DNA of 64,000 nt, from the NCBI RefSeq assembly GCF_910592395.1, contig NC_088317.1, positions 5,022,001 through 5,086,000 on the forward strand, written 5' to 3'. A model generated the notes under the pieces. It was given only the letters and a program-made list of their open reading frames with translations. It had not been told where the DNA came from and ran no database searches. Below are positions 46,401 through 55,400 of the stretch, in pieces; the stretch's first letter is position 1, and each line of letters begins with the position of its first letter. The translations under genes and the position numbers were made by a program. The DNA comes from Lineus longissimus. Taxonomy: Eukaryota > Nemertea > Pilidiophora > Heteronemertea > Lineidae.

Positions 46401-49400
46401 GAGCGCCACACTTACATGTGGAAATACCGCACCTACACGTGGAAGCACCACACCTACACGTGGAAGCACCACACCTACATGTGGAAGCCCCACACCTACA
46501 CGTTGAAGTGCTGCACCTACATGTGGAAACGCGCCACGTGTGTAATCGAACAAATAATTAGCTTTCAATGTCTTTATTGTAATGTTCTCATGGGAGATTT
46601 CAGTTATGGAGCACGGTGCATGCAGTATTAGAAGTACATTTTGTATGTTTTAGTTTGTGTATTCTTTCAGATTTGGGTAAGAACGTAATAATGGTATTTG
46701 ATCTGTCGAAAGTTATTTTTTTTACACATTTGCCTCTTTACATCTTTTAACTCCTTAGATAATCTGTTTATCAATTTAAATTGGTAATTGGGAGTAAACA
46801 AGTTTGAAATTATCTACGTTGTAGTGTTTGTCCCTTTCCCTCGTCTCATTCCCTCTTTTTGCTATCTTAAAGGGTTTTTATCTTTTGCCCACTTGTTGGG
46901 AGTTTCAAATCTATGTTTTTGTCTGTATACCTTTGGCGGCCACTTGCCACTGTGCCCTGCGAGATGGTATTTGCTAGCGATCCCTTGGCCCTCGTGACAT
47001 GGCCGAACCACCTCTGCTTTTTCTCTTGGCAACGCGTTTAGGAGGCTGTCATGATGCCCGATGTACTGGGTGACCCGTCCTCTATCATATGCGGTGGGTT
47101 ATAATCCTAAAACTACACAATGAGATTTTCAGGTTAGAATTTACAACGATAAACGTTTGTTAGTTTTTATTATATCCGCACTTTCGGAGAAAGTCTTCGC
47201 ACTGTTGTAAAGCTTCCAAATGCCTTGTGACCTCTCTACGTTCTGAACGAGTTCACCTAGACATTTCATATTTGGTGTGCACGTGTATCGGGTGAATATC
47301 AAGGCCAAGTTCGATAATGGCTATTTTCGCACTCAAGATGGCCGACTGTCGGCCATTTTGCTGTAAAACTTGCAAATGCCTTGTGACCTCTCTACATTCT
47401 GAACGAGTTTGCCTAGACATTTCATATTTGTGTCCACGTGTATCGGGTGAATATCAAGGCCAAGTTCGATAATGGCTGATTTCGCACTCAAGATGGCCGA
47501 CTGGCGGCCATTTTGTTATAAAACTTCCAAATCCCTTGTGACCTCTCTACATTCTGAACGAGTTTGCCTAGACATTTCATATTTGGTGTGCACGTGTATC
47601 AGGTGAATATCAAGGCCAAGTTCGATAATGGCTGATTTCGCACTCAAGATGGTCGACTGTCAGCCATTTTGTTGTAAAACTTCCAAAATACTTGTGACCT
47701 CTCTACATTCTGAACGAGTTCGCCTAGACATTTCATATTTGGTGTGCACGTGTATCGGGTGAATATCAAGGTCAAGTTTGATAATGGTTGATTTTGCATT
47801 CAAGATGGCCGACTGGTGGCCTTTTTGTTGTAAAACTTGGAAATATCTTGTGACCTCTCTACATTCTGAACGAGTTTACGTAGACATTTCTCGCTATAGA
47901 AATAGACTACCCAAAATAATAATAAAAGCCACTCCAATCATCAGCTTCCTTCTTTACTATTCTATTCAGTTCCAGCAACCTGATTTCACCAAAGTGCGGA
48001 TATACAAGCGTTTGCCAGCAAACGCGGTGCCTCTAGTTCAATTTATTTTCTTTTTCGTACCAACACCAAACTTTTTTCATATGTACGCAGATGGGAGAGG
48101 GAAAGGAATTACTGAAAATGGGAAAATTGTGTGTAGGCCTGCATGTACCTATACAAAGTGAATGGTCCATGCAATGACAAAATATGAGGCCGAGGAAAAT
48201 TGGGCTTATTTTCAAGTAAGAATTTTCAAGTTGGATGAATTTTTGTATTTGACAATTATAAGAGATATTAACACGCTAAATCAATCTGTTTCAGATTTCC
48301 CAGCAAACTGGAGCCAACCTTGGACAAAGTACAGGATTATCAGGTTTGTACAACAAACTCTAGATTTCTTCAATTAGGATACATGTATTTCACATTGTAG
48401 AGCTGGTAACAATCCAGTTCGATGTTCCCTCAGCGATTACAGCAGGAGTTCTCCAAGAAACATAAAATTACGGAGGACTGTCAGATATTCATAATTAGGA
48501 GTATCAGTTACTGACCCTGTTACCGGGGAATGTTCGTGAGGTTGATTGATTCCATTGCATTGTTTCAGTCTGGTCACCGAAATGGCCCTCTGGTTCTCCC
48601 CTACTTCCATATTAAAAGATTCTGCTTGATTTGTTAGCACTGCTTGGTGCACTAAGATCAGCTGAGTGGGGTTTATAAATAGATCATCTGATCAGGTAGA
48701 CAATGCAGCTATTGGCCAGATAGATACTACCTCTCATATACTGCTGGTTCTAATGATCTAGTTTCAGCAGATCTTCTTATCATGTAATTTATCACTTTAT
48801 TTGTGATTATTTTTTACCACAGGTCAATATCGGAATCTATGAATGTCGCGTAGCTGTAGGGTTGAAATTCACGATATCGCCCCTGGTCAAAATAGACATA
48901 ATTGATCAGTGCAAACGTGTACAGGGAGCGCATACAACTCTCCAAGGAGGAGGAGAAAAGCCGGTAGAATGAATTAAAATGTTTGAATGTGGTCCGCCAG
49001 ACCGGCCGGGGAAATCGGGAGTTGGCAATCTCATTCGGAATGCCGCATGGTGAAATTGGTTGATGATGGTTTGCATGAAGATTAAAAAGTAAAATCAAAT
49101 TGGGGCAGACCCAATAGGCCAAATTTGGGCCCTTAACCCTTTCGCTGTGGGTGACATGGTCCTATATTGTGTCGGTGACGTACATAGTTTCCTTCTAATA
49201 GTATAGATGGCGACACTTTTGAATAGTTTCCACCGTTCCAATAAAAGTAAGCTCCACTGTTGATCACTGGTATTGGCTGTGGGCACATGGCAGCAGCGGC
49301 CGAAAAATGGTTGCTGCAGCGAAGGGTTAATTACCTTGAAGTGCATTGAAAAACTACACTCTTCCAACGTGCTAGTGCACTTGACCAGATTGCCTGTCAA

Positions 49401-52400: not shown

Positions 52401-55400
52401 ATTTCAATGGAAACAACAAATTTGGGACCAAAACTAGTGTCCTTGATAAAGAGGTTGTCCTTAATAGAGAGGTGTCTGCTTAAAGGGCGGTTCCACTGTT
52501 TGTCCTTTAAATTAGGCTAATCTATTGGATAATACGTATTTGAATACATTTTATATTTTCGCGAAACAGTCAAAATGTTTTTTACCTCATCGCATCATAA
52601 CTATGGCGGGCTTCAAAGTCTCTCAAGTGTGGGACCACGCATTTTTACAATGCATTTCGTCCCTGCTTTTCATGTCAAATAAAAGTAGCACCTAATCTAG
52701 TGTTTTTAATTGGTTTGCAGTATTTCGTGTTCGACTTCCATACCACCAAGGCAGAACTGTTCGATCAAGTCATTCAACTCACAGTAAGTATACACGGTGA
52801 CCTCGAGCAAGGCATTTTACATTGTTGACTGTAATGATGCAATATAAATGCATGCTTTAGAAGCAAAATGTAGGCTACTGACTTTGACTTGGCAAGTCAA
52901 TTTGGGAGGTGTTATATTTGGGATTCTGCATGCAACACCTAGTTCAAGTAACTAGCAGTAATCGACTTTACACAGAAACCATATTGGTAAGTCCACGTTT
53001 GAAGGCTGTTGAGTCTTTATCTGTGGTGTTCAGTATGCACCACTCAGCACACACAGCCAGTGCTTATCCCCTTAAAACAGAAACCATACGTAGAGTCAAG
53101 GTGCATGGCTGCCTACCATATCATGAAAGAGCACATTTGGCAGTTAAATTTCCATTTTTTCGTTGGGAGGGCCTCCCTTGCTTCCAAGATTGCATACTCT
53201 TATGCTCTCTGGATGGGGCCGCGCCCCCTCTTACCCAAATATTTGGATCTGCCACTGTCATCTGTAACCAATCGTTCACAAAATCTGGATATTTTAGCTT
53301 TTGGTGAGCGACATTCAAAATGCTCTAAGGAGTATTGGTAACATTTTACTGAGGCACACCATAATCTTTCCCTTCACAGGCTGTGGCAACATCCAAGTCG
53401 ATCCCAGGCTTCAAAAGGGGCCAGAAAATTGGTATATTCAAGATAGATGTCGGCACAGTATATGCAGCACAAGGTAGGTTTGTCGGTTGGGATTTTGGGC
53501 TAAGAGTGGACCATAGGCACCACCATTTTGGCGAGAACTTGAAATCTTAAAGCTACAAAAATACTCTTTCAAAACAAACTCCTTCTGTTGCAGATCATAT
53601 GTTCTACCACAAATGGGCAGTTTTGGTTGATCCTGATGACGGTGCCTCAGGGGTCAAAGGTTATCTGAAATGTGACCTCTCGGTCACTGGGAAGGGGGAA
53701 CAAGTCAAGGTAAGAACATGATGTCCCCTTGCACCTGGCATGGGTTCTGTTCGGGGTGGTTAAAATACACATCCATAAAATCATAGCTCTTTTTTCTGGA
53801 ACCTTTTCCTTTCGTGCCAGAAAATGTCTGAAGAATGATGTATTCTTCAATTTATATGAAACTCTTTCTAATTTGATAGAAATTGCTCAACAATATATTG
53901 TACTTGTATTGATTCATTAGAACGCAGTTAAAGCAAGATTTTAAGCCCATGGTCTTGTTTTGTTTTGAGCCTGAGAAAGTCCCACTAGGTGTTTTGTCTG
54001 TTGCCCTGCACGTTAGATTTGCAGTGTGGTTACTACCAAGTCGACATGAATCCTGCTGATCAACAAAATACCACCTTTAATGCACTTTGGAGATTATAAA
54101 GTATAATAGAATGCCATTTGGATTATGTAGGATGGGAAGACATTTCTGCCCATGATTACACTTTGACCCTTTCTTTGTCTACTCCACATCTCAACATTCT
54201 ACAACTGATTACATCATTATCAAACTGATTACATCTTTATCGAAAAAGTCTTGTTGATATTCATATGGTGCATTACTTTTTCAGGGCCGAAAGGTCTGTG
54301 AGCTTTGTATGACATTTCATAAACCCCATAACACCCTCTTGAAACCTTCTGATATAGATGAGTAGTAATATTCCCCTAACATTTTAATCAATGTAGAATT
54401 TCGGTACTCCTATTCTTTTAATTGTTCTTAATATCTACTGCTGCAAACTCCCAACAAATTCCTACTAATTTATACATCTCACATTGGATTTCAGGATGTG
54501 AGTGTCATACTTTAACAGTAATCTATGTATAACTTCAAGTAACTTTATGTGTTACTGTGGTCTTGGGTCATTTTGTTCTTAACTATGCCTTATTATTTGC
54601 ACAAAGATTGTCTTAACACTTTCAGCGCCAGCATCTTCCCCTCCAAAACCCCATTTCCTGATTCCCAGGACAAAATCTATCAGAGATATATAACTGTACA
54701 AAGTATTTTCACTAGGTTCCCCAAGACAAGAGCTTTTTGAATCAAACTTATCAACAGAGAAATGATTACTATCCCCCTTGGGTATATTTTGGGTTTTTTT
54801 GGTTGAAAAGTGGCAGAAAGTGGCCAAAGTGACCCTGACCCCTCCCTTAAAAAAATTATTCCTACAGAAAGAAATTAAGCTGCTGGAAGAGAGGTATTTC
54901 GATGACGTGGATATATGTTTGATGGCGCTGAAAGTGTTGATTAAAAGCTTAAATAACGTTTCTAACAATAGCAGAACATCTCTCAGCAGACTACTGCCAG
55001 GGGGACACCCTGTTTAAGAGACAATTTTTGGTTATTTCATTTCAATTCAACCTTTGCAATCGCAATGTTTCCAAGGACGTCACTGGGCAGTCCTAAAGGT
55101 GCCTTTAACTGATTTAAACAGTGTGCTTTTGCTGTATGTCAATTATTTGTGTCTCTTTCTTAAAATTTCTTCACTCAAATATGATTTTAAAAACTTACTT
55201 TCAATTTGGGTGCGATTTCTGATTATTTGTCTGTGTTCATTTGTCAGTTGGACGTCTAATAAACCCCTGACTTTGTCAATTTAGGCTTCGTCGGTAGAGG
55301 TAGAGTACTGTAGTATCGCTTAGATCAGTTATGGGAATGAGAACACTATAATCTGACATACTTCTTAACCTTAATCCGCCTTGCCCCATCCCATCTAGGT

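Follow-up and report, generated by a model that had tools for sequence, protein, structure and literature searches.

How does a gene deploy four versions of the exon that encodes the first half of a single C2 domain? This question is raised by a 64,000-nucleotide (nt) stretch of the Lineus longissimus genome, referred to here as the window (C10:5022001-5086000, in an assembly of 391,118,348 bases and 30 contigs), in which a type-II ferlin gene carries four tandem exons, e1 to e4, for the start of its C2B domain. A second type-II ferlin gene, which we call the sister gene, lies on the minus strand of contig C4, and a further ferlin gene lies on C6. Inner hair cells require otoferlin, the ferlin with which we compare these genes, for transmitter release. 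Sequence comparison suggests that e1 to e4 are copies of one exon maintained under coding constraint, and we consider it probable that each transcript uses one of them at a time.

Four interchangeable exons between one pair of flanking exons

The exons of the cluster and their surroundings are as follows, in window coordinates.

42000..63677, plus strand: type-II ferlin gene, the part recognised in the window, from C2A to C2D
48295..48343, plus strand: exon preceding the cluster; in frame 1 its peptide ends ...KVQDYQ, in phase 0, and aligns to otoferlin residues up to DYQ
48823..48963, plus strand: candidate alternative exon e1, C2B first half; 141 nt, peptide ending ...GGGEKP
49482..49607, plus strand: candidate alternative exon e2, C2B first half; 126 nt, peptide ending ...TEEP
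50565..50696, plus strand: candidate alternative exon e3, C2B first half; 132 nt, peptide ending ...DDPQ, weak acceptor
51054..51185, plus strand: conventional exon e4, C2B first half; 132 nt, peptide ending ...SPYFNE
52210..52299, plus strand: possible additional phase-0 exon; 90 nt, GC donor
52721..52783, plus strand: exon following the cluster; 63 nt, phase 0, starting YFVFDFH, with a 63-nt counterpart in the sister gene
53380..53473, plus strand: C2B exon with the L3 loop; 94 nt
53594..53709, plus strand: end of C2B and start of FerI; peptide ending ...GEQVK

All four exons are open, are preceded by AG and followed by GT, and have lengths divisible by 3; their splice phases (0-0 throughout) are interchangeable. 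Coordinates, frames, phases and peptides agree with the first-pass annotation of this DNA, as do the peptide ends, SPYFNE being found on e4 only and GEKP, TEEP and DDPQ on e1 to e3. The five introns between 48343 and 52721 measure 479, 518, 957, 357 and 1535 nt. Scored with consensus tables, the acceptors of e1 (9.4) and e4 (8.4) are strong, that of e2 (3.4) is moderate and that of e3 (1.5) is weak; the donors score 2.9, 4.0, 4.9 and 3.5 in order.

Homology among the exons was assessed by global alignment against 2000 shuffles for each pair. The first three copies are clearly related to each other (z 10.6 for e1-e2, 10.7 for e1-e3 and 14.5 for e2-e3), and the pairs with e4 are weaker (z 4.1, 5.3 and 5.7 for e1, e2 and e3, respectively). 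Taken alone, the e1-e4 pair is not significant, as the best shuffle (28) exceeded the real score (23). The fourth exon aligns to the human otoferlin exon with z 12.7; this human sequence agrees with an otoferlin PDB chain across the C2B first-half exon. A profile of e1 to e3, searched over 1708 plus-strand translated segments of the two type-II genes, ranked its own three members first, followed by the C2B exon of the sister gene (E 0.0027) and e4 (E 0.0048), with the next match at 0.25; its rows were taken from an alignment that also contained e4 and the corresponding exons of the C4 gene and of human otoferlin. The sister gene's exon is likewise 132 nt long with phases 0-0. Neither the profile over these segments nor other searches of the gene found a fifth copy of the C2B first-half exon. 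By sequence similarity, then, e1 to e4 are tandem copies of the ferlin C2B first-half exon, lying between one pair of flanking exons, and the tandem duplication that had been proposed for them is supported by the e1-e3 profile, whose best non-self matches are e4 and the C4 exon.

Signs of coding constraint among the copies

Each of the six exon pairs shows more agreement at second than at third codon positions (p 1.1e-5 to 0.0035, the pairs not being independent). Among e1 to e3, second positions are the same at 28-32 of 42 and third positions at 9-19 of 42; over all six pairs, identical third positions number 9-13 of 40-42 wherever e1 or e4 takes part, and 19 of 42 in e2-e3. For e1 and e3, positions 1, 2 and 3 agree at 24, 29 and 9 of 42 (p 1.1e-5). 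A synonymous distance could be calculated for e2-e3 only (1.16), being undefined in the other five pairs; judged by third positions and this distance, the copies are not recent. The control was a dead partial C2G exon copy from this gene (85131-85193, in window coordinates extended beyond the window end), in which the three positions agree at 19, 19 and 16 of 21 (p 0.2) with no such bias; this control is weak, as it has 21 codons only and is a recent copy, 86% identical. The divergence of e1 to e4 therefore carries, at the level of the aligned codons, the mark of coding constraint. The copies appear to have been kept by coding selection, though the codon usage of e1 to e3 is unlike that of the gene's other exons.

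Predicted C2B forms

When joined to its neighbours, e4 gives a form that matches the PDB chains of otoferlin (1.2e-46), dysferlin (4e-30) and myoferlin (3e-26) and passes the Pfam C2 model (40.2 bits, 4.3e-10), with FerI at 4e-10; the e3 form matches the otoferlin chains at 8.7e-34. Against human C2B, the forms with e1, e2, e3 and e4 score 125.0, 130.5, 127.9 and 161.4 bits, and shuffled versions of e1 to e3 (60, 20 per exon) reach at most 113.6 bits. Since a form with no exon already scores 103.8 bits, much of the match to otoferlin stems from the part common to all forms. In the alignment, e1 to e3 are without the P-x-[FY]-N-E turn and their L1 is two residues longer; their predicted products are unusual C2Bs. 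By our own strand assignment, made by homology to C2 strands, the exchanged segment comprises beta1, L1, beta2 and the lead into beta3.

The functional meaning of such a swap depends on what C2B does. In mouse otoferlin, C2B has no Asp calcium ligands and contacts the membrane through L3, whose tip (K339, L341, L342, R343) touches and enters it; in the membrane-bound state the convex face of C2B contacts C2G, with FerI and C2F nearby (PMC12526402). Myoferlin likewise has L1-L3 loop contacts with C2G (PMC12264198). An opposing statement holds that C2B-F bind calcium (PMC10227054), so that calcium binding by C2B is disputed in the literature. The earlier suggestion that the copies give one calcium-sensor gene several C2B surfaces does not hold up well as phrased: the solved mouse C2B is without Asp ligands (PMC12526402), and L3 lies in a later exon. 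These observations suggest that the alternatives are better read as contact surfaces of the ferlin ring.

We propose that one copy is joined between DYQ and YFVFDFH in each transcript. Use of e4 would give a conventional C2B, and use of e1, e2 or e3 would give a C2B with the longer first loop and without the turn. Because L3 is encoded separately at 53380-53473 and mouse otoferlin C2B is without calcium ligands, e1 to e3 should alter ring packing. The isoforms would then differ in how C2B packs on neighbouring domains as the ring closes on the membrane, and calcium and the L3 membrane contact would stay unchanged between them.

Further possible exon choices in the gene and its sister

The gene runs past the window end, and its last transmembrane (TM) exon ends at about 102515 in extended window coordinates. 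Six tandem last exons, TM1 to TM6, start at 88666, 90045, 91129, 93532, 95088 and 102341 and span 88666-102515 (C10:5110666-5124515). Each carries its own stop and encodes R-P-x-x-[ST]-[FL] and a hydrophobic segment, and all six join in one phase after a common donor at 87282 (score 8.7), with acceptor scores of 8.4, 7.6, 8.9, 7.7, 4.6 and 9.6 in order. Second positions agree more than third at p < 0.01 in 14 of the 15 pairs, the exception being TM3-TM6 (0.097). A genome search with TM2 returned TM1 to TM5, a pair of TM exons on C4 and a single one on C6, together all eight of the scored candidates; TM6 was not listed with this query and came up with the human query alone. As each predicted anchor exon has its own stop, there would be one anchor version per protein by construction.

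The sister gene offers a different choice. It has two versions of the L3-loop exon, the second exon after that for the C2B first half, at 4203-4287 and 6068-6152 of the reversed C4 stretch, in C4:25106001-25116000, both 85 nt long and in the same phases, with acceptors of 4.1 and 5.0 and donors of 2.6 and 6.3. Their peptides, VLHSRNLLRSG... and VLQSRNFIRSN..., are identical at 19 of 28 residues, and codon positions 1, 2 and 3 agree at 21, 22 and 6 of 28 (p 2e-5). Because 85 is not divisible by 3, including both or neither shifts the frame; judged from the reading frame, both cannot be included and each protein carries one version. Choosing between them would exchange LL and FI at the L3 tip. 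The two TM exons of this gene (C4:25056797-25056970 and 25057157-25057333, minus strand) are identical at 56 of 60 residues. The first C4 stretch started 2.8 kb ahead of the C2B exon and was hence extended upstream; a second C2B first-half exon was found neither in the initial 70 kb nor in the 20 kb further upstream. Conversely, comparison of the window gene's L3 exon with its neighbouring introns found no second copy.

Are the copies used one at a time?

Three considerations make use of a single copy probable. A single copy makes up a complete C2 domain with its neighbours, which several copies should not do; the anchor cluster and the C4 L3 pair give one version per protein; and mutually exclusive exons for C2 domains recur in invertebrates (PMC2823689). 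The mutual exclusivity put forward, alongside combinatorial splicing, in the first-pass annotation thus stands as the best reading, strengthened by the further clusters in the gene and its sister, although we infer it rather than demonstrate it.

Several points weigh against this reading, beginning with its basis in the genomic DNA of one species. The reading frame does not enforce exclusivity, as e1 to e4 are all multiples of 3; the earlier argument that including one copy keeps the frame is true but does not discriminate, since skipping all of them or including several keeps it too. The introns between copies (357-957 nt) are too long for steric exclusion, and no donor in the cluster has a U12 heptamer. 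Shared docking/selector RNA pairing was within the shuffle range for four selector-side/docking-intron combinations, although a null from a single species is weak evidence of absence: the best windows pairing with all four exons had -24.4, -24.4, -20.1 and -23.1 kcal/mol (the weakest of the four exons), compared with shuffle means of -24.6, -24.0, -23.0 and -22.0 and lowest shuffle values of -29.2, -26.0, -26.0 and -23.8 kcal/mol (12 sets each at half scan density, with an approximate dinucleotide-preserving swap).

The same freedom of frame would allow e1 to e3 to be included together, in series or as cassettes beside e4, as a beta-rich insert that separates the linker from C2B; the frame is kept in every combination. 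The e1-e2-e3-e4 series scores 169.0 bits against human C2B, no worse than the 161.4 bits of e4 alone, so this score cannot separate serial from single use. However, each copy amounts to about one third of a C2 domain and starts at the strand right after DYQ, so a row of three should not make folding units, and the sister clusters in the gene family yield one version per protein by construction. We regard joint inclusion as unlikely.

Other points raise the question of whether e1 to e3 are dead or dying copies, with e4 alone in use. Open intronic decoys score as high in codon usage as e1, e2 and e3 in 16%, 31% and 33% of cases, compared with 0.8% for e4, and GC content at third codon positions is 0.43, 0.36 and 0.43 in e1 to e3 versus 0.62 in the training exons. 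Among 3903 AG sites, the e3 acceptor ranks above the 50th but below the 80th percentile. The joined forms lie below the Pfam C2 cut-off of 22 bits (e3 19.1, e2 17.5), with e1 not listed at all, and all three have lost the turn; moreover, the dead partial C2G copy indicates that exon copies do decay in this gene. Nevertheless, none of the three contains a stop, AG and GT flank each of them at homologous ends, and they have kept second positions while third positions diverged. The codon-usage deficit is also tempered by the anchor exons, where 2-16% of decoys score as high as TM2 to TM5 (TM3 16%, TM5 10%) and 0% as high as TM6; two of the five tested, TM3 and TM5, share the poor usage. Decay of e1 to e3 accordingly seems quite improbable to us.

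Finally, e1 to e3 might serve another product, spliced for example to part of e4 or to the possible 52210 exon and not straight to YFVFDFH. They are without the SPYFNE residues ahead of YFVFDFH, and 52210-52299 has a good acceptor (7.8), phase 0 and coding-like usage (only 0.58% of open intronic decoys score as high). However, its peptide is no piece of a C2 domain, giving 104.5 bits when included alone compared with 103.8 bits with no exon, and it requires a GC donor (1.9). We therefore hold this explanation to be very improbable and retain single use of e1 to e4 as the preferred reading. The 52210 sequence has a single match in the genome; without the GC donor, reading on runs into a stop, and there is an AATAAA at 52678. 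The introns before and within the cluster region also contain minisatellite arrays, at 45559-46532, 47203-47890, 51206-51409 and 51832-52073, with units of about 21, 156, 22 and 26 nt.

Identity of the gene and other duplicated pieces

The first-pass annotation treated this locus as the otoferlin gene. C2B is followed by FerI in the e4 form and is nearer to otoferlin than to dysferlin or myoferlin among PDB chains, as expected for a type-II ferlin; upstream, C2A matches at 42000-42092 (E 3.8e-5), with a weak N-terminal match at 40408-40491 (E 0.21). However, the closest gene to human otoferlin in this genome is the one on C4, whose C2B first-half exon is identical to the human sequence at 38 of 44 residues, compared with 18 of 44 for e4. 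Across 11 chosen exons, identity to human is 420/571 for the C4 gene and 339/575 for the window gene, and the two worm genes are identical to each other at 349/567. On these identities the window gene is an otoferlin paralog of type II, and the designation as the otoferlin gene should be dropped. The genome holds at least three ferlin genes (C10, C4 and C6), including two of type II. As invertebrates usually carry a single type-I and a single type-II ferlin (PMC2923515), the window gene appears to be an additional type-II copy.

When 34 window-gene exons and 29 C4-gene exons were compared with their neighbouring introns at E 0.02, no other duplicated exons emerged beyond the pieces noted here; as this test misses e1 to e3 when started from e4, and TM6 when started from TM1, very diverged copies could escape it. 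The C2G match at 85131-85193 (C10:5107131-5107193; parent exon 84896-85042) was considered as a further cluster and rejected as a dead copy, being truncated with in-frame stops on both sides. A weaker piece at 85608-85661 (E 4.5e-5) resembles the exon that follows this C2G exon. In the sister gene, 56217-56270 and 56322-56375 of the reversed C4 stretch are extra, protein-identical copies of the last 54 nt of a C2G exon, and the donor sequence after the second is the same as that of this exon itself. They were rejected as alternative exons because they are exon-end repeats and not full exons.

Relation to known systems and implications

Genes of the Dscam type carry several tandem exon clusters that can potentially be combined. 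The window gene resembles them in having more than one tandem cluster, potentially combined, but it would make far fewer forms, and the docking/selector pairing was not found. Closer in substance are the mutually exclusive exons that alter C2 domains in invertebrate Syt1, Syt34 and Esyt2, which have several origins (PMC2823689). There, as in the window gene, exon alternatives rewrite part of one C2 domain; however, those genes are synaptotagmins and E-Syts, whereas the window gene is a ferlin with four copies and a second, large anchor cluster.

Among ferlins, vertebrate OTOF has alternative last exons 47 and 48, each with a C-terminal transmembrane segment, and the stop in exon 47 excludes exon 48; the alternative exons named there are 6, 31 and 47/48, none of them a tandem C2B cluster (PMC10394277). 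The stop-bearing anchor exons of the window gene and the C4 TM pair are similar in kind, but OTOF has two such exons, as found in the C4 paralog, and the window gene has six. In dysferlin, an alternate exon 1 in C2A (PMC2923515) also rewrites the start of a ferlin C2 domain, although it is an alternative first exon and the present case is a tandem internal C2B cluster. Drosophila misfire is another invertebrate ferlin with multiple splice isoforms, in testis and ovary transcripts (PMC1853072); these differ in having fewer C2 domains and tissue promoters, and the term "mutually exclusive" is absent from that paper's text. The exclusive-exon example given in PMC12528612 is Snap23. In the searchable literature, with subscription papers and sequence databases outside the search, we found no published report of tandem or exclusive C2B exons in a ferlin or of such anchor clusters, in line with the first-pass remark, made without a search, of no known cluster of this type in otoferlin. 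Arrangements of this kind are already known; within the limits of the search, we found no description of a C2B cluster in a ferlin, of a six-fold anchor or of an L3 pair.

Expression of the copies, their exclusivity, their function and the independence of the two choices are what we infer from this arrangement. Independent choice of C2B half and anchor would make 4 x 6 = 24 proteins possible. We suggest, with rather less confidence than we place in single use and somewhat short of even expectation, that the two choices make the duplicated type-II ferlin combinatorial, giving up to 24 cell-type-specific fusion proteins, with the sister gene swapping its L3 tip (LL versus FI).

If this is true, ferlins would be tuned by exon choice both at C2B, whose swapped half would be a ring-closing surface, and at the membrane anchor. 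This would add ferlins to the families in which invertebrates vary C2 domains through exon choice. Together, the window gene and its sister may serve as a natural swap experiment, indicating which parts of the ferlin ring vary while the rest stays fixed.

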